From: Haloarcula sp. H-GB4
GTDB taxonomy: Archaea > Halobacteriota > Halobacteria > Halobacteriales > Haloarculaceae
NCBI RefSeq assembly: GCF_030848575.1
Contig: NZ_JAVDDX010000007.1
Location: 1-45,607 of the forward strand
Direction: 5' to 3'
DNA: 45,607 bases
Within the stretch, counting starts at the first letter, position 1, and each line of letters begins with the position of its first letter. Shown in pieces: positions 1,530 through 39,472 of this stretch. The notes beneath the pieces are model-generated. The model was given only the letters and a program-made list of their open reading frames with translations, ran no database searches and was not told the DNA's origin. Position numbers and translations under genes: made by a program.

Positions 1530-3320
1530 ATGACACCACCATCTGATTCACAGGACGACGAATACGTCGCAATCATCGATCAAAAAGAGGTAACGGACGA
1601 GGTCCGGGACATTGCTATCAAATATGATCCATTGAACCAATCTGGTCATGAAGGATTCCATATCACTGCTGACGATGAGCTTCATATTGACGATGCACTG
1701 GTGATGAAGGAACACGGATTAATCGAAAAAAAGATCCCAAACGATTCGATTCAGATCGTCCCACTTCCATCTGAGACGGGACAGCTAGTCAATCAATATG
1801 GCAACAATGGATTTCGACTATACAATCTTCCTGCTCCAGAAGACGGGTCCGTCATTGGATTACTTGGGCGCAATGGAATCGGAAAAAGTACTGCACTCCG
1901 TTGCTTATCTGGGCAACTTAAGCCGAACCTAGGACATCCAAATGAGGAGATAGACTGGGATCAAACAATTGAGCGGTTCCGTGGGACAACACTCCAACAA
2001 CATCTCGAGCGACTTCGAGACGGGTCTGTGACGGCTGCGTACAAAGAACAGCGTGTGGAAACTGTATCTGAATCCGACGATGAAACCGTCCGTGAACGGC
2101 TATCCAACCAGCCAAATGATGCTGGTCGGTTTATCGAAGACTTCCAGTTAGAATCGATTCTGGACCGGCCGATCGCCGACCTCTCTGGAGGGGAACGGCA
2201 ACGCGTTTCGATTGCGTTCACACTGCTGAGTGATGCGGATCTCTATCTTATTGATGAGCCTTCGTCGTTCTTGGATATCAAACAGCGCCTCACGGTAGCT
2301 AACACAATCCGTGACCACGTCAGAGAAACGGACTCAGCGGCTGTCGTCGTTGAACACGACTTGGCAATGCTGGATTTGCTTTCTGATGCAATCCATGTTC
2401 TCTATGGCAAACCGGGTGGGTTTGGGGTTGTTTCTCAACGGCTCCCTGTCCGGACAGGTGTCAACCAATTTTTGGACGGACGGTTGAAGGATGAGAACGT
2501 CCAGATTCGGCGGAATTCAATTGATTTCCCATCTGCAAACGAGCGGCGAAATCAATCTAATGAAGCACTACTTGAATATCCAAATCTTAAGAAACATTTC
2601 GACGAATTTTCACTCTCTGTTGAACCAGGCGAGATTCGGTACGGTGAATCAATTGGAATCCTCGGAGAAAACGCTCTTGGAAAAACTACATTCGTGAAAC
2701 TCCTTTCAGGCAGTCTCAGTCCTGATGAAGGGACGATTCCGGACGCCACGACAGTCTCATATAAGCCACAATATATCACACCGAACACGGCAGAATCTGT
2801 TCGAGAACGTTTCATGGAGGTCACAGATATTTATTCACAGTCCTTCCAAACTCGGATACGTGACCCATTCGATTTAGAAGAACTCTATGATAAGTCTCTA
2901 AACTCGCTCTCTGGCGGGGAATTACAGCGTGTTGGGATTGCTCTCTGTTTCGCGCGTGATGCAGATGTCTATCTTCTTGATGAACCGTCTGCCTTCTTAG
3001 ACGTTGACAGACGGGTGGCTATTGCTGATCATATCCGGCAACTCAGTGAGCGCATAGACCAACCAGTACTCGTTGTTGACCACGATCTGTTTGTAATAGA
3101 CCGAGTAGCTGACCGACTAACTGTCTTTGACGGGATCCCAGGCGAACAGGGTCATGCAATGCCACCTCAGTCGATGCGAAAAGGAATGAATACGTTCTTG
3201 TCCTCTGTTGGAATCACGTTCCGGCGGGATAATCGAACTGGTAGACCACGGGTCAATAAACCAGGAAGTCAGCTGGATAGAGAGCAGAAATCCGATGACG
3301 ACTATTATTACACAGGTTGA
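1530..3320 (+). CDS. ABCE1/Rli1-like ATPase paralogue with cysteine-free ferredoxin domain
   Basis: A twin-ABC protein of the ABCE1 (RNase L inhibitor, ribosome recycling) family, 596 aa, the usual archaeal length. First ABC: Walker A GRNGIGKST (113-121), signature LSGGERQR (218-225), Walker B LYLIDEP, H-loop VVVEHD. The hinge with LYGKPGGFGVVSQ and VRTGVNQFL is typical ABCE1. Second ABC: GENALGKTT (379-387), LSGGELQRVG, VYLLDEP, VVDHD. ABCE1 normally starts with two 4Fe-4S clusters held by eight cysteines. Residues 1-80 here align in order and length (AIIDQKE at the start, DSIQIVPLP at the end), yet the first cysteine is C125, so no cluster can form. The ATG at 1530 is chosen because alignment starts there; the upstream extension to 1398 is unlike the family. 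Codon use is AT-richer than the neighbours, which suggests transfer. It may be a ribosome-targeting paralogue, a decoy or a translation-control factor; the role is inferred. Confidence 0.88.
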   Translation: MTPPSDSQDDEYVAIIDQKEVTDEVRDIAIKYDPLNQSGHEGFHITADDELHIDDALVMKEHGLIEKKIPNDSIQIVPLPSETGQLVNQYGNNGFRLYNLPAPEDGSVIGLLGRNGIGKSTALRCLSGQLKPNLGHPNEEIDWDQTIERFRGTTLQQHLERLRDGSVTAAYKEQRVETVSESDDETVRERLSNQPNDAGRFIEDFQLESILDRPIADLSGGERQRVSIAFTLLSDADLYLIDEPSSFLDIKQRLTVANTIRDHVRETDSAAVVVEHDLAMLDLLSDAIHVLYGKPGGFGVVSQRLPVRTGVNQFLDGRLKDENVQIRRNSIDFPSANERRNQSNEALLEYPNLKKHFDEFSLSVEPGEIRYGESIGILGENALGKTTFVKLLSGSLSPDEGTIPDATTVSYKPQYITPNTAESVRERFMEVTDIYSQSFQTRIRDPFDLEELYDKSLNSLSGGELQRVGIALCFARDADVYLLDEPSAFLDVDRRVAIADHIRQLSERIDQPVLVVDHDLFVIDRVADRLTVFDGIPGEQGHAMPPQSMRKGMNTFLSSVGITFRRDNRTGRPRVNKPGSQLDREQKSDDDYYYTG

Positions 3321-3625: not shown

Positions 3626-3654
3626 TACGCCTACGAGGGGCAGACTGTCGCGTA

Positions 3655-3712
3655 ATTTTTGCGCCCCCGTGGGTTGAGGGGCGTCCCACAGAGGGCGTTC
3701 CGCCTGTCATTC
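3655..3712 (+). promoter_or_regulatory. Leader element L3
   Basis: Box ATTTTTGCG, then a C-rich arm (3664-3668) able to pair with GGGG around 3678-3681, then hairpin 2 (CGTCC with GGGCG, loop CACAGA). The ATG follows at 3713. Confidence 0.65.
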
Positions 3713-8293: not shown

Positions 8294-9325
8294 TCATTCA
8301 CTGCCGATGATATCGTTCGCTTCGTCACGGGTGCGTTTCGCCGCTTCTTGAGCGTAGCCCTCGTGTGTTGTCTCGATAGACTTGTGCCGCAGTACGTCCT
8401 GTGCCAGCTGTGGGTTTTCGCGATAGATTTCTCGCCCGAGGCCACGACGAGCGCCGTGTGGCTTTAGTGGCTCTTCGAACTCATAGTCGGACCACTCGCA
8501 GAGCTTGGCGAGGATATCGCGGGCTGACTGCGTTGTGATTGACGGTGTCGGGTCTAGAGCCTTCGCAGCGTTGTCCAGCCGCGGAAACACGGCTTCATTC
8601 TCGTCGGGCTCTCGAAGCTGTTTCCAGCGCCGGAGTGGGCGAAGCGCGTCGTCGAGGATCGGCGCAGACTCGCGGGTTCGATTCTTTCCGAATACCTGCA
8701 TCGTGCCAGCATCGAGGTTGACGTGCCGCCACCGCAGGCCGTTACGCTCTTCATCATCGGAGACGGCGACGAGTTCCGCGCTGCGGGCTCCGGAGTAGGC
8801 GAGCAGGAAGACGAGCGCTTGGTCACGATAGGCCGCCGTCCGGTCGACGTCGTCGCTCTCGCCGGCATTGTCGACACGGGCAGTGGCAGTCGCGCAAATG
8901 GCTTCGCGGTCGCGTGTCGTCCAGTACTGTTGGTCAGTTTCAGTCTCGTCGGTCGGAAGCGGCCCCTCGGCGTGGTTAGTCTTGGCTGGGTTCGTCGGTA
9001 TCAGCCCCTCGTAGACGGCCCAAGTGAGAAACGAGCGGACATACGCGAAGTACCGCCGTGCTGTTTCCGGCGAGATATCGTCACGATCGTCGGCTCGGGC
9101 TAGATCACGAGCGTACTGCCGGCAGAGATCATCGTCAATGTCCTCGGGGCTGGTGATACCATGCTGGTCCCGACTCCATGCCGCAAATTTCCGCAGCACG
9201 CTGGCGACGTTTGTTCGGTACCGTCCGGAGTCGATATCGACCAGCCGTTTCTCGATGGCTGTTTCGAGGGCGTCATCCCCGGGAGTAGCGTCGTACTCAG
9301 GCGGAAGCCGATCCATGCTTCCCAT
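8294..9325 (-). CDS. Tyrosine recombinase / phage-type integrase (343 aa)
   Basis: Site-specific recombinase of the tyrosine family. The N-terminal SAM-like core-binding domain spans residues 20-115, and the catalytic domain follows. The catalytic residues are all present: R181 in AYSGARSAEL, K214 in the beta hairpin, H290 and R293 (HGAR), H314, and the nucleophile Y324 in THEGY. Such enzymes integrate or excise elements or resolve plasmid multimers. No tRNA gene or obvious att site lies adjacent. A TATA-like TAGTATAATAA (reading the minus strand) around 9356-9366 lies about 30-40 nt before the ATG. The start could also be the ATG three codons later (9316). Confidence 0.9.
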   Translation of the reverse strand: MGSMDRLPPEYDATPGDDALETAIEKRLVDIDSGRYRTNVASVLRKFAAWSRDQHGITSPEDIDDDLCRQYARDLARADDRDDISPETARRYFAYVRSFLTWAVYEGLIPTNPAKTNHAEGPLPTDETETDQQYWTTRDREAICATATARVDNAGESDDVDRTAAYRDQALVFLLAYSGARSAELVAVSDDEERNGLRWRHVNLDAGTMQVFGKNRTRESAPILDDALRPLRRWKQLREPDENEAVFPRLDNAAKALDPTPSITTQSARDILAKLCEWSDYEFEEPLKPHGARRGLGREIYRENPQLAQDVLRHKSIETTHEGYAQEAAKRTRDEANDIIGSE

Positions 9326-10300: not shown

Positions 10301-13300
10301 TTATACTATGTCTGGGGATGAAAGGTTCCCCCATTGCTGAACATAATCTTCATGCGGGCTAAAGAGACGGCTGAGCCATCGTACAGAATATGAGACTAAT
10401 TCCTCAGCAGCGACCTTCCCCTCCGTTTCCTTTACCACCCACACCAACTGAGGGAAAATACACTGATTGGTTTTCGTATCAAGGAAGCTTTCCTGCCAAG
10501 CACTAAGAACCGTTTGAAGCGCCTCATCGCCCTGCAACTCTAAGAGTACACGTCCTAGCTCTTCGAGTCGCCCGCGGCCGTAGGAATGCCACGACAGCAA
10601 TCGTTTCTCTGCAATTGTCTCCTTCAGTAATGAGATCGCTATTTCTTGTTCTCCTCGATCTACAAGCGTTTCTGCGATAGGTACTGCCGCTGTGGGTCGA
10701 TAGCCCAAGTTATTAACAATAGCTCGGCCAGCATTAATTATATCATCTGTTGGCTGATCTTCGAATTCGTGCTTTGTAACTGGGTCATCATATGAATGTT
10801 TCAGAAGAATTTGATGTATCTCCTTGCTGAGTGAAGCCGGCTTTTCATCTGGGCTACTGTCGTACCCTTCTGAGCCATCATCATCAGCGACGATATCTTC
10901 CGGAATCTCAACCCCGTATTCATCAGCCAGACGCTGGATTTCGGTTGCTTGACTCTCATCAACACCGTCCCTCACAAAATCACCTTTGTTCATACTCCAT
11001 AGGGCATATTTTGCTTCGTCATGCCAATTCCGCTGAACAGCTATCTGTGCAGCGTTAGCGAAATATTGCACGTACTGATTAGAATATCCAGATGATTCTA
11101 TCCATTTCTCTTGGATATAAATTAGCTCGTGCAACTCAGATTTGGTTATGCCGTTTGGGTTTCTAAGCCGCCACCGCCAAATCCTCCGTGCTGTTCCTCT
11201 ATCTGTGACAGTAGACGCAACATCACTGTAATCAATAACGTCCTCTTCCAGAAGTGTAGATAAAAATTCGTACTCAAGATGGCCTGTTTCATCACCATCT
11301 GTGAGCGAATGTAGCAGAACAGCCCAATTGCTTAGCTGAATGCTAGTTCCCAGATGAGATTCCCAATCTTCTACAATAACTTCAAGCCCATCCCAAACAT
11401 CGCCTAAGAACCGATCTTTGTGATATCCATACCGAAAGCTACGCTCCACTGCCTTTCGATAGTATTTTTCAGCAAGTTTCGTATGATCTGATTCAGCAGC
11501 ACGGAGGGCTAGATCCATCAACTCCCGTGTCGGAGGTTCCCCTTCAGGAGGTGCTGTCATTATATTCCTGAACTCTTCTTCCCAAACATCAGGCAATTCT
11601 TCATTGTCAAATACCTCATCTCTTGCGCGAAGAATATCTCTAGCAAAATTATTCAATAAGAAACTATCGTAGGCTTCTGAGTCGGCTAAAGAAAATACTC
11701 TATTGAGCAGATCCTCCGATCCGTATTCAACTACCTCATTGAATTCATAGATGGTATCTTGCAGTATGGACTGATACTCGCTTCTCTCAAGGTTCTGGGG
11801 TTCAGGATCTGCTAACTCATGGTTGTCAAGAATTTCTGTGAGTATCTCTAGAGCAGCATCCGCCCATCTCCTTGTCATTTCGATGGACCTTCGTGTAGTA
11901 GCTGCCCCGATGACCGCCACCAACTCCCTAATCCGAGGTTGCTCATCAGCAAGTTCAGTAATAGCGTCTCGGACGGCTTCGGGTGTTCTACCCATATCCG
12001 CTAGAATCGCGCCAACATAGTAGGCGTCAGTAAATCGCGGATACGATTCATTCTGATTTCGAGGCTCACCGAAAGATATATTCTCCAAACCAGCTTCGAC
12101 TCTGTGTTCGGGTGCCCCACACACCAAGATTGTATGAAGCGCTACAGGGGAGAGATCATCATAAGATTTGACTTCGTCTATGAACCGAGTTTGCCATTGG
12201 TTGGGGAGATGATGTCCAATAGTTTCAGCTGCTTCTAATGTCTTTTCTGGATTATCAAATAGCCACTCTGGTGGCGACGGTCGGTTTTTCAGATGGTGTA
12301 GATTTTCTCTAATACCCCGGAATACTTGATATGTGAAGTGTTCTTCTGCTCCTTCAGTAACAATCTCTCTAGCGTGAATCCAGAAATCATCCGAGTCAAG
12401 CAATCTTGCTGCGGTTTCAAAATAGGCCTCAGGATTCCAGTCGAAGGAGTGTTCCTCCCCCTCCTGCTCTTCAATCCATTCCATTAGCCATTCGGGCTCT
12501 AGTTTGTCCTCCCAGACCTGAGATACTGATTGCATTGCTTCAAGGACTGACCCGCTCCCTGGGGCGTTCTTACGTATCCGATTAAGATATTTGATCGCCC
12601 TTTCTTCATCTCTGATTGCTAAGAAATATTCCAATCGCTCATCAGCGTATATAGATAGCATTTCATTAGCCGTTGTTCCCAACATTATGCTATCAAGTAA
12701 AGAAAAATAGTCGGCTTCCTCTACTGCTCCATCAAAGGCAAGCTCTAGTGCGTCTATGATCTCATCAATATGTACTCCTTGACGCCACCACTCCAGAACG
12801 TTATCTTGAGTGGCAAGACCCTGAAGAACTTGGAGTCCTGGGCCTCTTTGTGCGTGATATCTCAACCTCGTTGGATAATCAGGCGCTTTTTCAAATTGAT
12901 CTAGATAGTAATCGCAAAAACTCTGATGGATACTTTTGCGCTCATCATCTGACAACGCCCCCTCAACAAATTCACGGAAACTGGCGTGGAATATCCGATA
13001 GCGGTCTGGTTTCGTTTCTTCAAGTGTGTGTGCAAGCACGCCGCTGTCTAATCTCGTTTGATTCTGAAGCCAAGGTAAATCAAGTATCCGGTGGACATGT
13101 TCAGATTCTAATGCCGTTTGACTGACCGCAATGAGAGATAGAACGTCCCGAGAACGGGGTGTTGTTGGATCCCACAACTCCTCGTAGTACTCTTCTAACT
13201 TACCGTGAACCTCAGGAGCATCAGCGACGGCATTGCGAAGCCCTTCTTTTCGATCTCCCTCTTCTTCCGCTGTTCTAAGGAGGTGAGACAGTATCACTGG

Positions 13301-14737
13301 AAGACCTTCTGAGACATCGTACACGGAAGAAAGAAGTTCGGATTCTATGTCAATGCCGTTCTGCTCATAGTATGTTCCAACTTCATTTTTTGTCCAATAT
13401 GGAACCACCTGACGATCATCAATTTTTAGCACGTCACGGCCGTCAGATGACAGTTCTCGCCCGACCATCAGAAGACCAAGTGGATCGGGGAAGGTTAGAT
13501 TTCCAATCTCTTCAATAACAGTCCCTTTTATGTCATCAAAGGAGTTCATCCCCTCTGAATGGGGTAACGCATGATCAAGTCCGTCGATTATTATTAAGCC
13601 CTGTTGATGGTGTTCATCAGCCCATTTAGCAACTGTATCTATATGCTCCTGTAACTTCTCTGTGCCAGTCCAGATTGGATATTCGTCCGGTGAGAAGGCT
13701 TCCGGAAATTTTCTCTGAAGTTCTGCTGCTAACTGATTACGAAACCAATTCGGATCAATTCTATCTCTTTTCTGTTCTGGTGTGTCTGTAGGATCATGGA
13801 GATAATACCGAATAGTCTGAACATTTTCTTGTTCAGTAACACCATCAGAGAGTAACTCAATCCCAGTTGATTTCCCGCTTCCCGGGTCACCCTCTATGAG
13901 TCTGCGGTCACCGGGACTGACGAGAGTACCTTGTAAATTATGAACCCAGCTAGGGATGATGCAATCCTCATCGACTGGGAAGTTTTGGGGTATCTCTTCC
14001 GCAGACGGGGATACCTCAAGGCGATCTGCAATAGCCGGACGAGTGAGCTCGTCACCTGGGTCTTCCCGTACTCTCTGCGCAAGACTAATTGCTCGCTTTA
14101 CAAGGGTTTCGGCGCTTCCGATTCGCGGATTTTCTTTTTCACCGAAAATTGGCTGAACACTCTGAAGAATCTCCTGAAAAACTTTTGTCTTCGACAGCTT
14201 GTATTCTGTATCGACTCCAATCCCTTGGCCTAAGTAGGGGACATCGAATATGAACTCAATCTCTGAGTTTTCAGAAACAGTACCTGCGCTACCTTGGATA
14301 GTTCGAGTATTGAACTCAAAATCGCCGAATAGCGATAAGGTCTCTGTTTTGTCCGATAGTTGTATCTCAGATGGACGTGGTTCATTATACGATGTTAATA
14401 CAATGAACCGAGAACCTGCATCTCCTTCTTGCCTGGCTTGAGCTGATTTGACCATCTTCTCAACATTGAGTCGTCCTGATCGATCATTTAAATCAATCTG
14501 TAACAGTCTATAGTCTGGGCTGTGTTTTACTTGAATACAGATGGTCTCACTACCGGTTTCTAAGACGACGTCATCAAATCGATCATCATCGTCGTAAGCC
14601 GCTTCGATTTTTACACTCTCTGAATCACCAAATAGAACGGTTAGAATACAAATACCCCCAATGATATCCTGAAACAGATCCCCGCGTGAAGCTCCCGCCT
14701 TTTGTCGTGATTTTGCTGCCACCTCTGATTCACTCAT
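10301..14737 (-). CDS. Avs-like STAND NTPase with Cap4/DUF4297-type nuclease domain (1478 aa)
   Basis: A large predicted antiviral sensor. Residues 15-110 look like a PD-(D/E)xK nuclease of the Cap4/DUF4297 kind: E45, D55/D56 in RFDDVVLE, and the Q69-V-K71 strand ICIQVKHS. A STAND-type NTPase follows: Walker A GDPGSGKST (283-291), Walker B LIIIDGLDH (381-389), sensor LLMVGREL near 422-429 and a winged-helix-like segment. Beyond about residue 600 the protein is helical repeat, probably TPR-like, where Avs proteins recognise phage proteins. In the Avs (AVAST) family, target binding triggers oligomerisation and the effector domain cuts DNA. The gene stands alone, is AT-richer than the backbone, and lies between an IS remnant and a frameshifted gene, all signs of transfer. 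The ATG at 14737 is preceded by a TATA-like TTCTATACTGG about 25-35 nt upstream. The Avs subtype cannot be assigned by eye. Confidence 0.82.
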   Translation of the reverse strand: MSESEVAAKSRQKAGASRGDLFQDIIGGICILTVLFGDSESVKIEAAYDDDDRFDDVVLETGSETICIQVKHSPDYRLLQIDLNDRSGRLNVEKMVKSAQARQEGDAGSRFIVLTSYNEPRPSEIQLSDKTETLSLFGDFEFNTRTIQGSAGTVSENSEIEFIFDVPYLGQGIGVDTEYKLSKTKVFQEILQSVQPIFGEKENPRIGSAETLVKRAISLAQRVREDPGDELTRPAIADRLEVSPSAEEIPQNFPVDEDCIIPSWVHNLQGTLVSPGDRRLIEGDPGSGKSTGIELLSDGVTEQENVQTIRYYLHDPTDTPEQKRDRIDPNWFRNQLAAELQRKFPEAFSPDEYPIWTGTEKLQEHIDTVAKWADEHHQQGLIIIDGLDHALPHSEGMNSFDDIKGTVIEEIGNLTFPDPLGLLMVGRELSSDGRDVLKIDDRQVVPYWTKNEVGTYYEQNGIDIESELLSSVYDVSEGLPVILSHLLRTAEEEGDRKEGLRNAVADAPEVHGKLEEYYEELWDPTTPRSRDVLSLIAVSQTALESEHVHRILDLPWLQNQTRLDSGVLAHTLEETKPDRYRIFHASFREFVEGALSDDERKSIHQSFCDYYLDQFEKAPDYPTRLRYHAQRGPGLQVLQGLATQDNVLEWWRQGVHIDEIIDALELAFDGAVEEADYFSLLDSIMLGTTANEMLSIYADERLEYFLAIRDEERAIKYLNRIRKNAPGSGSVLEAMQSVSQVWEDKLEPEWLMEWIEEQEGEEHSFDWNPEAYFETAARLLDSDDFWIHAREIVTEGAEEHFTYQVFRGIRENLHHLKNRPSPPEWLFDNPEKTLEAAETIGHHLPNQWQTRFIDEVKSYDDLSPVALHTILVCGAPEHRVEAGLENISFGEPRNQNESYPRFTDAYYVGAILADMGRTPEAVRDAITELADEQPRIRELVAVIGAATTRRSIEMTRRWADAALEILTEILDNHELADPEPQNLERSEYQSILQDTIYEFNEVVEYGSEDLLNRVFSLADSEAYDSFLLNNFARDILRARDEVFDNEELPDVWEEEFRNIMTAPPEGEPPTRELMDLALRAAESDHTKLAEKYYRKAVERSFRYGYHKDRFLGDVWDGLEVIVEDWESHLGTSIQLSNWAVLLHSLTDGDETGHLEYEFLSTLLEEDVIDYSDVASTVTDRGTARRIWRWRLRNPNGITKSELHELIYIQEKWIESSGYSNQYVQYFANAAQIAVQRNWHDEAKYALWSMNKGDFVRDGVDESQATEIQRLADEYGVEIPEDIVADDDGSEGYDSSPDEKPASLSKEIHQILLKHSYDDPVTKHEFEDQPTDDIINAGRAIVNNLGYRPTAAVPIAETLVDRGEQEIAISLLKETIAEKRLLSWHSYGRGRLEELGRVLLELQGDEALQTVLSAWQESFLDTKTNQCIFPQLVWVVKETEGKVAAEELVSYSVRWLSRLFSPHEDYVQQWGNLSSPDIV

Positions 14738-15294: not shown

Positions 15295-16524
15295 TCAGTC
15301 GGTATATTCCTGAATCGACCGATTCGCCGTGACAAGCTCGATAGCATCACCGATTCGAGAGTCTTCGGAGAGGATATCGAGCGTCATTCCAAGGTCGGAG
15401 GCCAGATCAAAGACGTAGTGGGGGCCGCCACGATTACCAGTCTGTTTTTTTGTCGCGGTGATGACGCCCATCAAATCGAGTTCAAGAAGGTGGTCGCGAA
15501 CGCTCCGTTGGGTTCGAATGTCTGCGTCGATCTCTGTAGCAATATCCTTATATCGAGCGTACAGTTCGGTTGTCTTCGCTGGCGTCTGTCCCTCTACTTC
15601 TAGTGCGACGACAGCTGTCAGTGTGAGTTGGTCCTGTACCGTCATCTCACGAATCCCCTTTTCGATGTTCTTCCTGTCGATGCGGTCTTGAGCCGTCCGC
15701 ACATGCTGCTCAGTGACCATATTACTCCCAGTGTTCGACGCCAGTTCACCGGCTTTATACAGGTAGCGAAGGGCCTGTCTCGCTGACCCCTTGTCCTGGG
15801 CTGCGTGCGCGGCACAGAGTGGAATTACCTCATCCTCTAAGACGCTTTCTTTGAATGCCTGATCGGCACGCCGCTCCAAGATAGACCTCAGTTGATTCGC
15901 GTCATACGGAGCGAAGTGTATCTCTTCGTCGAACAGGGTGTCTTTGACTTTCGGGGACAGGTTGTCGCGGAATTTAAAATTATTCGAGATTCCGATGACG
16001 CTCAGGTGCATATCGTCGGGGATATTGCCGTTGGACTTGGCACGAGGAATCGAGTACAAGATTTCGTCCGACGTCCCGATATTGTCAATCTCGTCCAGCA
16101 CAATGATAACTGTTCCACCGATGTCCGTCACAGCATCAAAGAACTCGTCAGTAATCTTACTTATCGGGTGCCCGTTTAGATTGTCGCCAGTGAGGCGCTC
16201 AACGAGGTTGATCAGCACATGGTAAGAGGACGAGTCACCAGCGCAATTGTACTGAACCGTCGTAATATTTAATCCCGCCTCGTCGGCAGCTGCGACGAGA
16301 TCGTCAAGTTTGAATTCGACACCTGCTGTCTTCCCTTGTCCGGTTTTCCCGAAGAGAAACATATTGTGTGGACCGACACCGGTGTTGCGAATTGCAGGTG
16401 CGAGCGCATTGTGGATCTGGCCTAATTCTTCATCACGTTCAGGCAGTTCTTCTGGGTCCCAATCATCAGTGAGTGGACGCTCATCCTCAAATATCGGAGA
16501 ACCGCGTTCAAATGTCCGTGACAT
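15295..16524 (-). CDS. orc1: Orc1/Cdc6-type replication initiator (409 aa)
   Basis: Archaeal Orc1/Cdc6 initiator, which binds origin recognition boxes and recruits the MCM helicase. An AAA+ domain spans residues 30-280 with Walker A GKTGQGKT (59-66) and Walker B IIVLDEID (140-147). A lid region with GSARQALRYLYKAGELA follows, then a C-terminal winged helix (TELYARYKDIATEID, RSVRDHLLELDLMGVI). Length is typical. The gene is divergent from the origin region and flanked on both sides by the same 17-nt box, the classic layout of a haloarchaeal replicon carrying its own initiator. An 8-bp dyad (16542-16567) surrounds a likely TATA box about 25 nt before the ATG, suggesting autoregulation. Confidence 0.93.
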   Translation of the reverse strand: MSRTFERGSPIFEDERPLTDDWDPEELPERDEELGQIHNALAPAIRNTGVGPHNMFLFGKTGQGKTAGVEFKLDDLVAAADEAGLNITTVQYNCAGDSSSYHVLINLVERLTGDNLNGHPISKITDEFFDAVTDIGGTVIIVLDEIDNIGTSDEILYSIPRAKSNGNIPDDMHLSVIGISNNFKFRDNLSPKVKDTLFDEEIHFAPYDANQLRSILERRADQAFKESVLEDEVIPLCAAHAAQDKGSARQALRYLYKAGELASNTGSNMVTEQHVRTAQDRIDRKNIEKGIREMTVQDQLTLTAVVALEVEGQTPAKTTELYARYKDIATEIDADIRTQRSVRDHLLELDLMGVITATKKQTGNRGGPHYVFDLASDLGMTLDILSEDSRIGDAIELVTANRSIQEYTD

Positions 16525-27939: not shown

Positions 27940-29256
27940 TCAGAACGCCATAAAGAATGCTTGGATGTCGGCCCAGAGGTAGCCGACCACACCAGCCCCG
28001 ACCAATCCGAACAGGAGTCGGAGAATCCATGCCGGCCAGTTCCGGTCCTCGACCATGTTGACCACGTCCCGGACCATCGGCACCGAATCGGTCAGACCGA
28101 AGTCCCTGCTGATATCCTCCAGCCGCCATTCCATGTGCATCAGCAGGAACACTGTAATGCCCTGCACGAAGTGTGACGCATCCATGAACGACGCTGATGG
28201 TGGGTAGGCAATCACGACATCGACTAAGATGAACCCGATCAACATCGCGGCCCCAACCTCGATGATGTTCTTCCGACGCCGGTTTTCCCGAATCGTCTGG
28301 TCTTTCCCCTCAGCTACCTCGTCCTCGTGCTCCTCCAGTTGCTCAGCCGAGAACACACGGATGCTGTTGTCCAATCGGCCGAGCAGTTGGTCAAGCAACG
28401 CGAGTTGCTGTACGTCCGGAGTGAACTCATAGTCGATCTCATCCGCCAGATACAGCTCGAACGGCAATTCGTCGTACAGCCGCTGCCACAGGTGTTGGCG
28501 TATCTCGTTCACGACCTCCTGTGCGAACTTCTCCTCGCTCAACGCGTCCCGCATCGCGTCCTGTTGTTCTTGGAAGAACCAGGCGAGCGGGATCATCTCG
28601 TACTCGTTCAGGTCCTCCTCGTCCACGCGCCGCATCTTCTGCAGCACGTGGCGACACTCTTCGGCGTCGTATTCAGCGACCTCCAGGGCGACAGTCTCGA
28701 CGAATGCCATCCGGTCGTACTCCGTCCACGTCGCCTCTCGATGGCCTTCCACTTCGTCAGCGAGGAAATCGCGGTACTCGTCCAGCGCATCGTACGCCTT
28801 GATGCCGACCAAGGCGCAGTACAGGTAGACGTAGGAATTGAAGAACTGGAACCGCGCCGCGTCCGGCCCGCCGCTCTCCTCGCGTCGAGCGATATCTTCA
28901 TCGATCTGGGCGAAGAACTGGTCCTGGATATCGTCGTAGATCGGACGGCCACGGTCGTACTGTTGGAAGAACTCAGCCATCAAACCAAGGGCTGCGACCT
29001 GGTACTCGTGCGATATCTGGGCGTCATCGAACCAGGTTTCAAGTTCATCGACGATCTCGGCTATATCATCCGTGTGGCCATCGTGGGTCTGTAACGCGAG
29101 GCCGACCCAAGCCGTGCTAAGCGGGTCGCCATACCAGCCGGGCCGTTCCTCTTCCCGGCCGAGAAGCTGGTGGGTCGTCCGATGGATGATGAGCTTCAGG
29201 TCGGGCTGGGACTGCTCTCCCTGCGACTGCTCGCCGGCCGTGGTTAGAGGAACCAT
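27940..29256 (-). CDS. Membrane protein, predicted effector of the Argonaute operon (438 aa)
   Basis: The last gene of the Argonaute operon; its ATG at 29256 overlaps the end of the PIWI gene by 13 nt, so it is co-translated. Residues 1-325 are helical, acidic and soluble (EEERPGWYGDPLSTAWVGLA near the start, a helix-repeat-like middle). The C-terminus has three membrane segments, about 332-351 (VGAAMLIGFILVDVVIAY), 361-375 and 410-430 (LLFGLVGAGVVGYLW). I know of no named domain. In the Sulfolobus SiAgo system a dead Argonaute activates the membrane protein Aga2, which depolarises the cell; the gene order and the membrane tail suggest a similar job here. This is inference from context, and a receptor or anchoring role is possible. 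Confidence 0.7.
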   Translation of the reverse strand: MVPLTTAGEQSQGEQSQPDLKLIIHRTTHQLLGREEERPGWYGDPLSTAWVGLALQTHDGHTDDIAEIVDELETWFDDAQISHEYQVAALGLMAEFFQQYDRGRPIYDDIQDQFFAQIDEDIARREESGGPDAARFQFFNSYVYLYCALVGIKAYDALDEYRDFLADEVEGHREATWTEYDRMAFVETVALEVAEYDAEECRHVLQKMRRVDEEDLNEYEMIPLAWFFQEQQDAMRDALSEEKFAQEVVNEIRQHLWQRLYDELPFELYLADEIDYEFTPDVQQLALLDQLLGRLDNSIRVFSAEQLEEHEDEVAEGKDQTIRENRRRKNIIEVGAAMLIGFILVDVVIAYPPSASFMDASHFVQGITVFLLMHMEWRLEDISRDFGLTDSVPMVRDVVNMVEDRNWPAWILRLLFGLVGAGVVGYLWADIQAFFMAF

Positions 29257-30554
29257 GGGATATCCCTGAGGCGTGGGCTCACCATCCGGCCTATGTTAAT
29301 TTTTGACATACCGTCATCATTAACCTTCTGGGCATTCTCGATGATATCTGCGATATCCTCGGCGTACTTGATTGTGATCGGCATATTTGATCCGAACTGG
29401 TCCTTCCAGTACACCGAGCACAGGTCATAGATGCCCTGCGCGACCTCCTCAATCTCCAGGCTGCCCTCGACTTCCAGCTCGATCGGGACTGGCGATCCCG
29501 GGCGGAAGTTGCGGCGGCCGCCCGTCATGACGAATCCCTTGTTCCCGCCGGTTCGGATCCACAGCCCACGTTGCGACAGACCGGTTTTGTGCCGGTCGTC
29601 GTAGATCCGGAAATCGTGGCTGTCGTTAAGATGCGCCAGCGTGACGTCGAGGCTATCGAACTCGTCCTCTAACCGTTCCTGTGCGTCACGCTCCGCCGGG
29701 CCGATCCGCTTGTAGCTGTGGACCACGATATGCCCCGGTGCGTTCTCTTGCTGGGCATACGTCTCGGCGGCCTCCACAATTCTCTCTGTCAATTGGTCGT
29801 TAAACGAGTCGTAAGACCTGGTCGCCTGCGTCGAGTCGAACCAGAGGAAAGCGCCGTTGCTCTGGTAGGCGGCAGCGAACCCGAGTGTCCGTGTCGTCCC
29901 GCCGACCCGGCCGGCGCGGTACTCGCTTTTCCCGACGCCGATCACCAAGTCGACCGGTGACTGGGGCCGATGGATGACCCACGGCGTCCCACCGAGCTTC
30001 GCGTAGATCTGGCTGACAACATTGACAATCAGGTACTTCAGCGGGACGTGGTGCGGTGAATGCCGCCGAAGCTTGTCAACAAGTACCATCTGGGTAGGAA
30101 TACCGGCCTGCGTGAGAAGCGCCTTCACCGCCCAGTACGGCGACCGGTATCCGCGGCTGCGCATCTCGTTCGACATGAACACGATCGCCAGATCGTCATC
30201 GGCGGCTTGGATATCGTCGACGGCGTCCACGTAGGTATCGAGGTCAGTGTCGTCCAGTTCGATGGTGTTCGCGACGGAGACGCTGTCCATTCGGAAGAAC
30301 GACCGGAAGCCGTTCGGGTAGTAGCTCGAGTGGCCGTTGATCAGCGCATCCTGGAACCCTTCGGCGTCCGACCGCCAGCTTGCCGGGTACACGATGGTGA
30401 ACGTGGCGTCGGTGAAATCGCGAGACGTGGAGGAGTCGAACGGACCGTTCCTGCCCAGCCCTTTACCGACGTTACTGTTCGTGATGCTGGGGTTGGTGTA
30501 GTCGAATCTGTGGGTCGGTGAATCGAGTTGCTCGGCGTGGAACTGAGTGGGCAT
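29244..30554 (-). CDS. Argonaute MID-PIWI subunit, catalytically inactive (436 aa)
   Basis: A short prokaryotic Argonaute half. It opens with NVGKGLGRNGPFD, the segment that begins the MID part of many pAgos. MID pocket residues for the guide 5' phosphate fit the Y-K-Q-K pattern: Y140, K144, Q155 (in GIPTQ) and K185. The PIWI domain starts at DLVIGVGKS (202-210). NgAgo has IGID here, so the first catalytic Asp is G208. A later position equivalent to the HRDG Asp of NgAgo is Y281 in HIVVHSYKR, so target cleavage is not expected. KTGLSQRGLWIRTGG, PVPIELEV, MPITIKYAED and the C-terminal IPWFL match the PIWI end. It starts 3 nt after the N-lobe gene and overlaps the membrane gene. Like Archaeoglobus AfAgo it should need a separate N-lobe subunit. 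Confidence 0.88.
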   Translation of the reverse strand: MPTQFHAEQLDSPTHRFDYTNPSITNSNVGKGLGRNGPFDSSTSRDFTDATFTIVYPASWRSDAEGFQDALINGHSSYYPNGFRSFFRMDSVSVANTIELDDTDLDTYVDAVDDIQAADDDLAIVFMSNEMRSRGYRSPYWAVKALLTQAGIPTQMVLVDKLRRHSPHHVPLKYLIVNVVSQIYAKLGGTPWVIHRPQSPVDLVIGVGKSEYRAGRVGGTTRTLGFAAAYQSNGAFLWFDSTQATRSYDSFNDQLTERIVEAAETYAQQENAPGHIVVHSYKRIGPAERDAQERLEDEFDSLDVTLAHLNDSHDFRIYDDRHKTGLSQRGLWIRTGGNKGFVMTGGRRNFRPGSPVPIELEVEGSLEIEEVAQGIYDLCSVYWKDQFGSNMPITIKYAEDIADIIENAQKVNDDGMSKINIGRMVSPRLRDIPWFL

Positions 30555-30557
30555 GGG

Positions 30558-31556
30558 TCAGGTGAACACCTCCATGGGCTGGTCGGCGATAGTAAGCGTC
30601 TGCCCGGTCAGCAGTTCGACGTCCCGGTCGATCTGGTCCATCAGATCGTTCAGCTGGCCGAGTTCGTACTTCGCCTCCCGCTCCGAGGCCTTCTCCTCGC
30701 TCAACCGGTCCGGGATACCAAGACGGCCCCGACCGATGTCTTCGATGATGCCGGAGTGGCGGCTGCCGTACTTGTCCGTCGCCCACTGACGGATGTTCGC
30801 GTAGCTGGCTTCCATCGCGACTCGTTGGACCGGCGGGTTGGCGTCGATACCGTCGACAGCCGGTGACAGCGACACGTACCGGCCGGACCCGTCTGCAGCA
30901 TACTGGCACGCCTCGCCGCTACCAGTGAATCCGTCGAACTCCCCGATCAGCCCGTCATGGCCGTGGAACGTGCAGTCCCCGTGTGTACAGTCAGCAGGGC
31001 AGTCCATCTTAAGCCAGAACTCTCGATTGTTGACGCCGTCCAGCACGCCTTCAAGCGGTTCCGTGAAGATGTTCGTGGTCGTGTACGCGAAATTGACGCC
31101 GACGAACGGCCCCTGGTCCGGGAAATTCCAGAACCGTGACCGGACCTTCAGTCCTTGACGGATCTCTAGGCCGTCCACCGGTTCGGCCACGGGATCGGTC
31201 AGGTAAACCTCGTTCACCCGGTGGGTCTGGGCCTCAGTCTGGTCGACCTGCAATGGGGTGAAGTCGTGGTTCTCGATAAGATGGCGGATTACGCTGTACT
31301 GCACCAAGTTCGAGTAGATCCAGAGATAGTCTTGCCACGGAACGCTGTTCTGCTCGTACTCGGTCTCATCCTCGAGCACCTGCCGCCCCTCGTCGTTGGT
31401 CGGGACGGCGATCATGGGCGAGGCCTCGGTGTCGGTCGTAACGGAGTCGTACCGCTCGTCGATGATCTGAGGAATATCGCGGTTGTTAGAGGGATATCGC
31501 CAGATCCGGAGGTCGTCGCCCGGAAGCTGGCACTCGTACACGTTCAGATGGACCAT
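30558..31556 (-). CDS. Argonaute N-lobe subunit (332 aa)
   Basis: The gene before MID-PIWI. It looks like the front part (N-L1 and a PAZ/L2-like region) of a long Argonaute split into its own protein: VNEVYLTDPVAEPVDGLEIR, then GLKVRSRFWNFPDQGPFVGV and NFAYTTTNIFTEPL, similar in order and pattern to the N domain and linker of NgAgo. After it comes an unusual Cys/His cluster (C186, C190, C195, H198, H200) that could bind zinc. Residues 270-310 (SGIIEDIGRGRLGIPDRLSEE) are helical. The 3-nt gap to the next ORF implies equal production. AfAgo-N plays this role in Archaeoglobus. Sequence similarity is weak by eye, so the assignment rests on position, length and a few motifs. It has its own promoter (31583-31589). 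Confidence 0.72.
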   Translation of the reverse strand: MVHLNVYECQLPGDDLRIWRYPSNNRDIPQIIDERYDSVTTDTEASPMIAVPTNDEGRQVLEDETEYEQNSVPWQDYLWIYSNLVQYSVIRHLIENHDFTPLQVDQTEAQTHRVNEVYLTDPVAEPVDGLEIRQGLKVRSRFWNFPDQGPFVGVNFAYTTTNIFTEPLEGVLDGVNNREFWLKMDCPADCTHGDCTFHGHDGLIGEFDGFTGSGEACQYAADGSGRYVSLSPAVDGIDANPPVQRVAMEASYANIRQWATDKYGSRHSGIIEDIGRGRLGIPDRLSEEKASEREAKYELGQLNDLMDQIDRDVELLTGQTLTIADQPMEVFT

Positions 31557-35654: not shown

Positions 35655-37880
35655 TTACATGAACTCAGATACGTCGCGCTCCTCCTCTTTTGACTCAGTT
35701 TCGTCCCGCTCTTCAGTCTCGTTTGAGTCTCCCTCTGCATCTGATTCAGTGGGTGAGTCACCGCCTTCCTGCTCGGCAGATTCCGCCCCACCTAAGCTGG
35801 GATCTGGGTCCGGATCAGAGAAGAGTCCCCCGGTGTTGTCGTCGGACTGCTGGTCGTGATCGCCACCGTCGTACTCATTTTCTTCATCTGATAGGTCTGG
35901 GCGGTCTGTGTCCGGAGATGTGACGGCAGTGTTTGCTGTTGTCTGGTCGAGTGGGTCACTGGAATCGTCGTCGCCCAACCCGTCTGTCGCGTCGACGGTC
36001 GGCTCGACTTCAGGGTCACGATCCGGGCCACTATCTCTGGACTCATCGCCGTCGGTCTCACCAACTGACCCACGGAGTACATCGTCAAGTCGAGCCCGAG
36101 TAAACGAGAACCAACTGTCGTTCTCTATGTCGGTGTCATCTTCCGTTGGCTCTGGTTCCGAACTGCTCGGCGACTCCGCGCCCTGCGCCGGGAGGCTATC
36201 GCGAACGTCCGCCAGTTCGTAGGACTGCCCATGAACCCACGTCGTCCGAGAGACGGCAACGCACTCACCGGGCTGGAAGTCTCGGAGCAGGCCGGAGGTG
36301 ATCGGCGTTTTGTCCTTCTCTTTGTACGTGTCCCGAGCCTGCGTTCGTGGGTTCTCGCCGCGCCCCTGATGACTCATCGACACCATCTCGGAGCGATCAT
36401 ACTGACGGCTTTCGCCGAGTTCGTCGAGGATGAAGTCCGTCGACTCGCTGTCACCCGGACCGAAGTAGACTCCTTGCGGGCAGTTGCCGACAATCCCAGA
36501 GATCGTGCTGTATGTGTCTTTGAGCTGGCCGATTGTCTGCACGCCGACCAGTGCCCGACCCTTGTGTTTCCGGCCTCGGGCCGTGAGGTTCGTTACCTGC
36601 GTGAGCGCCGGCAGCGCGTCAATCTCGTCGAGGATATGGACCGTCGGATTCGAGGCGTTCATCGCGTAGCGGATCGACCAGTCTACGAGCAGTTGGTACA
36701 TTGGCCCGAGCGTTTCCAGTTCCGTTGGATTCGAGTCGATAATGAGGACTCGGCCTTCCGGGTTCTCGATGTACTCTTGCAGCGAGAACTCCCCGTAGTC
36801 TCCGAAGTCGCCGGTGAAGACGGGATCGACATTCTCCTTGATCGTCTGGTAAACGTTCTGTGCGCCTTTCCCTTTATCAGGGTCGATATGACCCGAATCC
36901 AGTCGGTCGAACTCGTCAAGAGCTTTCTTGAGGGCAATGTGGCCCTCGTTGAGTAGTGAGACGATATCGGCGTGACAGAGCGCATGGCGGCGATTGTTCT
37001 TTTTTGCGCTAAGATGCAGATACATCAGCATCTCCACGAAGGTCTGTTTGGCGGGCCGGTGGAATGGGTCGTGACCGTCGGCTTCGCCGAAGATCGCGCC
37101 GGCGACCTCACGGAAGTCTGACTCGTCGTAGGCGTCCTTGAACAAATTCCAGACCACGTCGCTATCCTCGTGGCGGATGCGCTGAACCTCAAAGCCCAAG
37201 TCCTCGTAGAATGCTTGGAAGTCCTCGCCGGTATCGTGAGCGACGACCGCCGTGTCACTGTAGTACGGGAACTGGTAAGCCAGCAGCTTCATCATCGACG
37301 TCTTCCCGCTTCCAGTCTCGCCCACGACAGCTGTTGAGACATCTTGATCGAGCGTGAACGGCATTTCAGCCTCGTTGTGTTCGTGAGAGACCTCTTCCAG
37401 CGGGACGACGGACTCCCCGTCGTCGTGGTCCCACTGGTTCATCGCGAGCATTTCCGGCGAGGTCCGGCGGAGCAGTTCCCCGGAGAACACGATACCGATT
37501 GAGATAGCATACAAGATCACCGTATTCGAGTACGAGACCATCGGCAACGACAGTCCGGGCACAGTGAAGTCAGCAAACAGTGTCCCGACCGAGATGGCAG
37601 CCAGAACGTGTGCGAACGGGAACAGCAGTGCGACGCTGGGCGTCTGGACAAGCATGTCGTAGAAGAACGCCGCGCTAATGAGTCCGAACCCGAGGTAGAT
37701 GTAGCGCCATGCCCAGAACCGCTTCGGAAGTATCTTGTCGCTATCGACGATCATCGGCGGGAACAACAGCATAAATCCGGCCCAGACGAACCCAACGACG
37801 TTGTCGTACTTGAGGCTATTCGGGACTTCGCCGGAGCGTTGTCCTGGTGGTGCAGAGGAACTCGAACTCACTGCCACCAC
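35655..37880 (-). CDS. VirD4/TraG-like coupling protein (741 aa)
   Basis: Type IV coupling ATPase that would bring the relaxase-DNA complex to the transfer channel. N-terminal membrane segments lie near residues 27-45, 58-76, 83-104 and 118-134. Walker A GETGSGKT (187-194) and Walker B VHILDEIDAL (414-423) frame the TrwB/VirD4 motor domain, with the LTARGRKHKGRALVGVQTI segment typical of the family. The last 180 residues are a very acidic, low-complexity tail. The start at 37880 overlaps the relaxase gene by 13 nt, making it the last gene of a compact transfer operon. Confidence 0.88.
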   Translation of the reverse strand: MVAVSSSSSAPPGQRSGEVPNSLKYDNVVGFVWAGFMLLFPPMIVDSDKILPKRFWAWRYIYLGFGLISAAFFYDMLVQTPSVALLFPFAHVLAAISVGTLFADFTVPGLSLPMVSYSNTVILYAISIGIVFSGELLRRTSPEMLAMNQWDHDDGESVVPLEEVSHEHNEAEMPFTLDQDVSTAVVGETGSGKTSMMKLLAYQFPYYSDTAVVAHDTGEDFQAFYEDLGFEVQRIRHEDSDVVWNLFKDAYDESDFREVAGAIFGEADGHDPFHRPAKQTFVEMLMYLHLSAKKNNRRHALCHADIVSLLNEGHIALKKALDEFDRLDSGHIDPDKGKGAQNVYQTIKENVDPVFTGDFGDYGEFSLQEYIENPEGRVLIIDSNPTELETLGPMYQLLVDWSIRYAMNASNPTVHILDEIDALPALTQVTNLTARGRKHKGRALVGVQTIGQLKDTYSTISGIVGNCPQGVYFGPGDSESTDFILDELGESRQYDRSEMVSMSHQGRGENPRTQARDTYKEKDKTPITSGLLRDFQPGECVAVSRTTWVHGQSYELADVRDSLPAQGAESPSSSEPEPTEDDTDIENDSWFSFTRARLDDVLRGSVGETDGDESRDSGPDRDPEVEPTVDATDGLGDDDSSDPLDQTTANTAVTSPDTDRPDLSDEENEYDGGDHDQQSDDNTGGLFSDPDPDPSLGGAESAEQEGGDSPTESDAEGDSNETEERDETESKEEERDVSEFM

Positions 37881-38623
37881 CCACGCTTACGTTCGGGTTC
37901 CTGCTCGCGTTCAAGATCAACTTCGGGTTCGCGTTCAGTTGCCGCCTGTTCTTCGGCCCTCTCCCCAGCACGTTCTGAGAGTGTCTCAGTTTGGCGCTCA
38001 TCGGTCGCTTTCTCAGCCGTGGGCTGTCCGGCGTCTTTCTGCTGACTCTTCTCAGTCGCCCGTTTGAGCGCTTTTTCCGCTTCGGGGTTCAGCGCTAGTT
38101 CTGCCTCGTGGTACTGCTCCCGTGCTTCTTCATCCACGACCCGGCCAATGTCCTCGGGAGAATCACGGGCGGCAGCCGTTGGGTCGCGTGTTCGAGCGGG
38201 TTCTTCAAACGCAGTCGCTGCTTGTTCGCGCATCTGTCGGATATCTTCCCGACCCATTTCTAATTCCGCACGCTCGCCAGTCGCCGCGATATGTGCATGG
38301 GGAAACTCTGTGTCTCGGTGAACACCATACACGCAGTCGGTTGTCGGTTGTTGAGCCAGCCCGCTATTCACCAGTTCCCGAGTGTTATCACGGACTTCCT
38401 CTGGCGAATATTGTCCTGTGGGATCTGGCGAGACGATTACATGCCGCTGGAATCCGAACTCGCGGCTCTTGTCGACAAACCGATTCACCTCTGAGTCAGA
38501 CAGTTCTCGCCCGGCTGGGTTTCGGAGGTCAACTGTCACGCCGGCGTCCTGTTCGCGATCACGCTGAATGTAATCGACGAGGTTCCCTGCACCACCCTCC
38601 TGATAATCTGTTTTCAGCATCAT
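37868..38623 (-). CDS. Relaxase, MobA/VirD2-like (251 aa)
   Basis: Candidate transfer-initiating nuclease. The N-terminus MMLKTDYQEGGAGNLVDYIQ supplies the possible nucleophile Y18. The HUH-like metal motif is in VHRDTEFPHAHIAA (H102, H109, H111), preceded by the RHVIVSPDPTGQYSPEEV strand, the usual order in MobA/VirD2-type relaxases. The protein is short; residues 150-251 are charged coiled-coil or disordered, so there is no helicase or primase domain. The ATG overlaps the stop of the upstream small gene by 4 nt (ATGA). Confidence 0.82.
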   Translation of the reverse strand: MMLKTDYQEGGAGNLVDYIQRDREQDAGVTVDLRNPAGRELSDSEVNRFVDKSREFGFQRHVIVSPDPTGQYSPEEVRDNTRELVNSGLAQQPTTDCVYGVHRDTEFPHAHIAATGERAELEMGREDIRQMREQAATAFEEPARTRDPTAAARDSPEDIGRVVDEEAREQYHEAELALNPEAEKALKRATEKSQQKDAGQPTAEKATDERQTETLSERAGERAEEQAATEREPEVDLEREQEPERKRGWWQ

Positions 38624-39093
38624 ACACTCTCACCTGCCGGCTCGGCGGCAGTCGAGGCATCTGACTCAGGGTTGCCTTCCTCGTCTGGTGTTTGCGATTC
38701 TGTGTCTGGATCTCTCCCAACATGCTCGCCGGCAAATTTCAGCGCAAGCCGTCGCTGTTCAGCTGAGTAGTCATCTTGAATCAATTTCCAGATCGCGATA
38801 GTGTATGCTGTCCGGACTTTTTGGACGGTTTTTACCTCCTCCATTGTTCCAGACTCAAATTCTTCTAACAGCTCTGTCACCTCGCGCTTTGCCTCCTCCA
38901 GCAAGACTTCGATTTTTGTGTTAGTGCTGTACCGCTGATACTGACTTTCTCCAGTCTCCCACTCAATGTATTCCTCGATAACCTCGTGTCCGTATTCGGA
39001 GGTGGATGTCCCCGCGGCGTCAGCCAACTGGTCAAACAATTCTTTGTTCTCTTCACTCGTATAAATCTGGAGTAGAGTGTCTCTCTCAGTCAT
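38620..39093 (-). CDS. Relaxosome accessory-like protein B (157 aa)
   Basis: Second small protein before the relaxase. LLQIYTSEENKELFDQLADA, then GTSTSEYGHEVIEEYI, resembles the N-terminal half of ribbon-helix-helix/MobC-like proteins. A helical middle (EVLLEEAKREVTELLEEFES) and an acidic disordered tail follow. It is coupled to its neighbours by ATGA overlaps at both ends (39090-39093 and 38620-38623). It is related in layout to the 39090 protein, suggesting a diverged pair that binds oriT or the relaxase. The role is inferred from position. Confidence 0.65.
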   Translation of the reverse strand: MTERDTLLQIYTSEENKELFDQLADAAGTSTSEYGHEVIEEYIEWETGESQYQRYSTNTKIEVLLEEAKREVTELLEEFESGTMEEVKTVQKVRTAYTIAIWKLIQDDYSAEQRRLALKFAGEHVGRDPDTESQTPDEEGNPESDASTAAEPAGESV

Positions 39094-39467
39094 TCCTGAC
39101 CCTCCTTGTTTCGGATGGTTTCAACCTCATCCTCTAGTTTATCTGTCGCTTCTTCCATCGCAGTAGCGCGCTTGTCTGCCGGGAACTCAGAGGAAATTAA
39201 ATCCCACAGAGCGACCGAGTAGAACAATTCCTGATCCGTGTCAACGCTTGTTGCTTCGTCAACGTCTTCTACGACGGCATCAGCGATGTACTCCAGTTCC
39301 GATCCAAGGTTTAATTCCCCCGCACGCTGTTCCTGTAGTTCGCTCGAAATACGCCGTTCCGCAGCTTTCAGAATGTACTCTGAAACCCCTTCACCCGCTT
39401 TGTTAGCCTGCTTCACGATCTGTTTTCGCTGCTCTGCACTCATCCGAATTGTAACTTTTTCACTCAT
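39090..39467 (-). CDS. Relaxosome accessory-like protein A, RHH-type (125 aa)
   Basis: Small protein beginning MSEKVTIRMSAEQRKQIVKQ, then GEGVSEYILKAAERRI: a strand, helix, turn and helix that fit a ribbon-helix-helix (MobC/CopG-like) DNA-binding domain. The C-terminal part is helical and acidic. MobC-type proteins melt or mark oriT for the relaxase. The ATG at 39467, 6 nt after the VirB4 stop, is preferred over GTG 39476. The gene order VirB4, A, B, relaxase, coupling protein supports a relaxosome role. Confidence 0.7.
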   Translation of the reverse strand: MSEKVTIRMSAEQRKQIVKQANKAGEGVSEYILKAAERRISSELQEQRAGELNLGSELEYIADAVVEDVDEATSVDTDQELFYSVALWDLISSEFPADKRATAMEEATDKLEDEVETIRNKEGQE

Positions 39468-39472
39468 ATGAA

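Follow-up and report, generated by a model that had tools for sequence, protein, structure and literature searches.

Contig C7, a stretch of 45,607 nucleotides (hereafter the window) in a haloarchaeal genome of 4.19 Mb, carries a gene for a protein that descends from ABCE1, keeps its ATPase, helix-loop-helix (HLH) and hinge elements, has replaced both of its cluster-binding loops, and accompanies a normal ABCE1 wherever it occurs. We propose, with moderate confidence, that this cysteine-less form, here called type P, is a horizontally mobile, Fe-S-independent paralogue that may stand in as a spare when the supply of clusters to canonical ABCE1 fails.

An ABCE1 by descent and motor

Read from an ATG start, the open reading frame at 1530-3320 on the forward strand encodes 596 residues, with homology to ABCE1/RLI over nearly the whole length. 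Searches with phmmer recovered full-length ABCE1 structures (4.8e-161 to 3j15/5lw7 and 5.1e-161 to 3bk7, the Pyrococcus protein), and the product passes the NCBIfam RLI equivalog NF009945 with 689.8 bits against a cut-off of 469. A longer frame, from a GTG at 1398, is unlikely, as the extension has no counterpart in relatives other than the closest copies. An earlier note on this DNA had described both ABC domains and the hinge as intact, and the alignment agrees: both ABC domains, the HLH insert, hinge 1 and hinge 2 are whole, and with K119, E243, H276, K385, E485, H518 and both LSGGE motifs kept, all ATPase residues are in place (Table 1). ATP binding by type P is plausible on these grounds.

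The same note had proposed an ABCE1 paralogue devoid of Fe-S cysteines, and this holds. The protein has only two cysteines, residues 125 and 473, both within the NBDs; residues 1-124 contain none, the alignment fills 0 of the 8 Fe-S cysteine positions, and Pfam Fer4_RLI (PF04068), which matches the canonical proteins and the type S proteins described below, finds no match here. Type P is an ABCE by descent and motor, and the databases annotate its genes plainly as RLI; we do not file it as canonical ABCE1, because the two-cluster domain that defines the latter was looked for and is absent.

A canonical ABCE1 with all eight cysteines is encoded in the same genome (L002, G000:C2:755483-757147) and is 47% identical to the window's protein. 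In this canonical copy, DEITPYLD follows the NBD1 Walker B glutamate in place of the usual DEPSSYLD. GC3 is 0.44 in the window's gene versus 0.86 in the chromosomal one, so the AT-rich codon use that had been read as a sign of recent acquisition is real; that the acquisition was recent does not follow from it, since two Haloarcula sinaiiensis copies that lie ~0.49 apart in synonymous distance have the same GC3.

Table 1. Features of the type P gene in the window, with the evidence for each.
Feature	Position	Strand	Evidence
Cluster-free ABCE1 paralogue (type P), 596 aa	1530..3320	+	ORF, phmmer, NF009945; type in 19/391 genomes
Former Fe-S (ferredoxin-like) domain, residues 11-81, 0/8 cysteines	1560..1772	+	alignment, models, Foldseek, conservation, dN/dS
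NBD1 Walker A GRNGIGKST, residues 113-121	1866..1892	+	P-family conservation
Helix-loop-helix insert FRGTTLQ..., residues 150-176; R151 = S. solfataricus R144 equivalent, kept	1977..2057	+	conservation, contact mapping
NBD1 signature LSGGERQRV, residues 218-226	2181..2207	+	P-family conservation
NBD1 Walker B / D-loop, catalytic Glu243, residues 238-249	2241..2276	+	P-family conservation
Hinge 1, residues 293-327, incl. N323 = S. solfataricus N316	2406..2510	+	conservation, contact mapping
NBD2 Walker A GENALGKTT, residues 379-387	2664..2690	+	P-family conservation
NBD2 signature LSGGELQRV, residues 460-468	2907..2933	+	P-family conservation
NBD2 Walker B / D-loop, catalytic Glu485, residues 480-491	2967..3002	+	P-family conservation
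Hinge 2 region GMNTFL...ITFRRDNRTGRPRVNKPGSQLDREQK, residues 552-587	3183..3290	+	P-family conservation

A remodelled N-terminal domain

Modelled with AlphaFold from an alignment of 29 sequences (the window and locus proteins), the full protein reaches a mean pLDDT of 86.8, with block means in the range 81-90 across residues 11-80, and a TM score of 0.90 to 3bk7; the N-domain on its own is modelled less well (pLDDT 64.7). The domain is predicted to have a ferredoxin-like fold, although the input alignments contained canonical ABCE1, so that the prediction is not fully independent and this fold may have been favoured. In the model, the order of elements is beta-alpha-beta-beta-alpha-beta, and helices at residues 23-31 and 60-68 stand where the cysteine loops were, one for each loop. 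Structure prediction had been suggested as a check, and the isolated domain does find its best Foldseek matches in the PDB among ABCE1 Fe-S domains, with ferredoxins next among the top matches, at E-values of only 0.03-0.09; it superposes on the ABCE1 domains with an rmsd of 1.6-2.4 Å and ~24% identity. Another type of domain at the N-terminus, which the earlier note had allowed for, finds no support in the alignment or in this fold search.

Residues that contact the ribosome were mapped from S. solfataricus ABCE1 (PMC7196836). The equivalents of the uS12-contacting P25 and S29 are kept in type P, S29 varying in one subclade; that of R28 is kept in most members and is Q37 in the window's protein; those of I68 and N316 are also kept. 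Lost are the equivalents of the h44-contacting K15, N17 and E19 and of the cantilever residue N70, while that of R2 is already missing from the canonical ABCE1 of haloarchaea. With the h44-contact residues and Asn70 gone, the N-domain must dock differently; ribosome binding is nonetheless plausible, given that the uS12-contact motif and the hinges are retained.

Distribution and constraint of type P

The survey took in 391 haloarchaeal genomes; an RLI match is present in 389 of them and type P in 19, with 20 copies in all. The cysteine-less N-domain recurs in more than 20 other loci, at 53-93% identity, and every intact type P N-domain lacks all eight cysteines; a sequence error hiding the cysteines, which had been raised as a way in which the first reading could fail, is thereby excluded, and the same recurrence together with dN/dS values of 0.02-0.08 excludes a decaying copy. 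An eight-cysteine ABCE1 stands alongside type P in the window's genome and in 18/18 other carriers, which answers the question of coexistence that the note had posed.

The suggested association with plasmids also stands, as type P is often plasmid-borne. Ten plasmids in PLSDB have strong matches, eight of them type P and two (L015 and L016) canonical eight-cysteine copies, with some overlap between plasmid and surveyed-genome records (L012 = L063, L018 = L073). Copies occur on chromosome-sized contigs as well (G172, G280, G174, G360 and G128). In L015 and L016, from Halarchaeum and Natronorubrum plasmids, the eight-cysteine ABCE1 gene lies less than 10 kb from an aCPSF1 gene, and L015 also has a ribonuclease Z gene. 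No type P was found outside the haloarchaeal order in a phylum-wide sample. A phage or virus origin was considered and rejected: an IMG/VR search with this query yielded no relative, and a phage collection gave only weak, ABC-F-like matches.

Throughout 23 type P proteins, the catalytic residues, the signatures, the Q-, H- and D-loops, the HLH insert and the hinges are conserved. It is the former Fe-S domain, however, that is best conserved within the type (mean identity 75.8%, versus 60.8% for NBD1 and 57.9% for NBD2), despite being the region least like canonical haloarchaeal ABCE1 (30.9%), and it has a consensus of its own, DEVRNIAxKYDPLNRSGxEGFHxT...EHKLIEKKIPNDAI. Compared with its nearest homologue, the window's gene has a dN/dS of 0.077 overall, and of 0.023 for the N-domain, where 2 nonsynonymous changes stand against 18 synonymous ones. 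The N-domain is thus the part of type P under the strongest purifying selection, and its conservation and low dN/dS mean that the domain is in use, for something that does not need the cysteines. At the same time, at least 3 of the 20 copies are broken, by an in-frame stop in G280, a shortened C-terminus in G375 and a frameshift in G080, and type P is therefore dispensable. The broken or shortened loci are L060 (G280), L063 (G375), L070 (G080) and L075 (G090), the last lacking its N-terminal part near a contig end.

A possible halfway stage

In four haloarchaeal genomes (G021, G382, G217 and G285), which belong to two small families and are draft assemblies of 88-98% completeness, the one ABCE1 found is of another type, here called type S (L037-L040). 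These proteins keep the cysteines C1, C2, C3 and C8 only, C4-C7 being gone. In two-cluster ferredoxins, one cluster is bound by the first three cysteines of one motif and the last of the other, and by this pattern the four cysteines of type S are exactly the ligand set of one cluster. Type S appears to mark an intermediate step at which a single cluster remains. It is the best-supported sister of type P (100/99); the two have both lost C4-C7, and where the fourth cysteine motif would be, both have DPLNRS. They differ in that type S retains four cysteines and is the only ABCE1 found in its genomes, whereas type P, without any of the eight, in every case accompanies another ABCE1. Type S could conceivably be an in-place orthologue of canonical ABCE1; its gene neighbourhoods are unlike that of the canonical locus.

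Types P and S also group together when the N-domain is left out and NBD columns only are used; in that tree, however, type P does not itself form one group (34% of bootstraps), nor is a topology that joins type S to the canonical proteins rejected (p-AU 0.11). A stepwise loss of clusters in haloarchaea, from two to one to none, is likely, and for these two reasons stays short of proof.

Genomic neighbourhood

No constant neighbour gene sits beside type P, and no family is conserved across its subclades. For 9/20 type P genes, in five type P lineages, there is a DUF2249 gene no more than 10 kb away, where gene number and genome size would predict 0.31; replicon bias may inflate this enrichment. 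The island in L011, L012, L017, L061 and L062 adds genes for a cupin, a universal stress protein, a CGCGG peptide, a 2-oxoacid:ferredoxin oxidoreductase, an SdhB-like Fe-S protein, a ferredoxin, a peroxiredoxin and a tryptophanyl-tRNA synthetase; not all are present in each locus. DUF2249 genes of Haloferax mediterranei are induced under denitrification (PMC11218638). The denitrification promoter motif from the same study, CGAAYATDKTYG, is absent from the 250 bp upstream of 25/25 type P genes tested, nor do carriers have nirK significantly more often (13/19, versus 197/372 of the others; P = 0.24). On both counts, we rejected membership of type P in the denitrification regulon, and keep the DUF2249 link as genomic proximity only.

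The window's own type P gene has no DUF2249 or redox genes around it; nearby are genes for a SWIM protein and a TFB, a methylase fragment and an integrase. Upstream of the type P gene, two small genes each have at their start a copy (277-371 and 875-969) of a 95-nt direct repeat, 94% identical between the two, and a related 71-nt copy (3634-3704) precedes the SWIM gene downstream; we read these as duplicated leader segments. With a Cdc6/Orc gene (15295-16524), an integrase gene (8294-9325) and, on the reverse strand at 35655-42727, genes for a type IV secretion coupling protein (TrwB/TraG) and a VirB4-like ATPase, the window looks like a conjugative plasmid or an integrated element. Its reverse strand also encodes a split prokaryotic Argonaute (29244-31556), made up of a Piwi half (29244-30554) and an adjoining frame (30558-31556) with a weak match to the N-terminal part of class II pAgo, as well as a 1478-aa ATPase (10301-14737) with a weak Avs1b-like match (2e-8).

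Proposed function and alternatives

How might an ABCE1 work without its clusters? We posit that protein-only helices would take the structural place of the clusters in the N-domain, that ATP-driven closure could still swing this domain towards uS12 on the 30S subunit, and that type P would thereby split ribosomes or hold 30S apart. Its use would be that of a spare when clusters are scarce or damaged, be it by iron limitation, by oxidative or nitrosative damage, or by redox shifts. Reactive oxygen is reported to have, as a primary target in living yeast cells, the clusters that are destined for Rli1, and these clusters are regarded as structural, a redox-catalytic role being thought unlikely (reviewed in PMC8153317); on the other hand, the clusters are held to be essential in yeast (PMC8153317, PMC6088178), which counts against a cluster-free spare. 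More tentatively, we consider it possible that ABCE1 as such can work without clusters, as the passage from two to one (type S) to none would suggest, and that type P is a mobile ribosome-splitting ATPase which sustains translation when clusters are damaged. The earlier note took the Fe-S domain to be required for splitting; where the clusters are concerned, that premise may be too strong, as the type S lineage lives with the ligands of one.

Type P could instead be a specialised regulator that binds 30S or 70S through its hinges and HLH insert. It would then be a slow factor for anti-association, for hibernation or for the recycling of selected targets (favoured, for instance, by a single A-site factor), and its remodelled N-domain would supply a new docking surface. 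The conservation of the N-domain to its own consensus, the loss of the h44 contacts with the uS12 ones kept, and the retention of canonical ABCE1 in every carrier genome would all fit; yet the ATPase sites bear no sign of a stalled or slow enzyme, no partner gene is conserved, and the sister type S is evidently a general ABCE1 despite its changed domain, so we consider such a role somewhat unlikely. A redundant dosage copy, active under all conditions and fixed by plasmid or island hitch-hiking with no new role, would account for the patchy occurrence, the broken copies and the lack of a uniform neighbourhood. We find this improbable, considering that the family is old (53-93% identity), that its dN/dS is 0.08 with the N-domain most constrained, and that such a copy would be expected to keep its cysteines, as the plasmid RLI copies L015 and L016 do.

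The earlier note had leaned towards a dominant-negative protein or translation silencer, or else a plasmid-addiction or defence factor, any of which would jam ribosomes. The frequent plasmid location, the split pAgo and transfer genes in the same window, and the loss of clusters from a domain considered essential for splitting speak for a jamming factor, but we now regard it as highly improbable: the catalytic glutamates, signature and His-switch are conserved, and the N-domain is under the strongest purifying selection. No antidote or other partner gene travels with type P among its carriers, broken copies persist (G280, G375, G080), and several copies lie on chromosome-sized contigs. As for defence, the best PADLOC match (mad3) spans parts of the NBDs only, as it would for any ABC ATPase, and we rejected that reading of the gene. 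Lastly, the role of the clusters might have passed to another cofactor or metal bound by the N-domain, or to a protein that binds there, and conserved acidic and His positions (GFHxT, HIDD, EH) could be taken to hint at this; with helices packed where the clusters lay in a cofactor-free model, no conserved Cys/His pattern of the sort seen at Zn or Fe sites and no constant neighbour gene, we consider the idea scarcely credible.

Relation to known systems

In reviews, ABCE1 as a rule has eight cysteines and binds two clusters (PMC6088178, PMC8153317), and the need for these clusters in translation has been offered as a molecular reason for mitochondria being indispensable to eukaryotic cells (PMC8153317). 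In the open literature, we found no description of a cysteine-less, single-cluster or second haloarchaeal ABCE1. Why should a mechanical ATPase need clusters that seemingly perform no redox chemistry? Natural proteins with one cluster and with none are ready material for testing what the clusters do. If types P and S split ribosomes, the clusters would be a scaffold, possibly a sensor, and not the mechanism; if they fail to, these proteins define what the clusters are for.

Type P resembles the ABC-F factors (EttA, ARE-ABCF) as a soluble twin-ABC ATPase of a kind that acts on ribosomes, but it scores only 113-183 bits against ABC-F cut-offs of 380-807, and has the hinges and HLH insert of ABCE. 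A parallel in kind is offered by the metal-free paralogues of zinc proteins, such as DksA2 and the C- ribosomal proteins (e.g. bL31B), in which a domain is likewise kept without its ligands beside a ligand-bearing original; there the metal is zinc and induction by metal starvation is known, whereas in type P it is [4Fe-4S] clusters that are missing. With canonical ABCE1/Rli1/RLI of archaea and eukaryotes (3bk7, 6tmf), type P shares full-length homology, twin NBDs with every catalytic residue, the HLH insert, both hinges, the C-terminal RPRxNKPGS motif and the predicted overall fold. From the canonical protein it departs in lacking the eight cysteines, in an N-domain only 31% identical with its cluster loops modelled as helices and its h44 contacts lost, and in its standing in the genome: canonical ABCE1 is usually a single essential gene, and type P an accessory second one.
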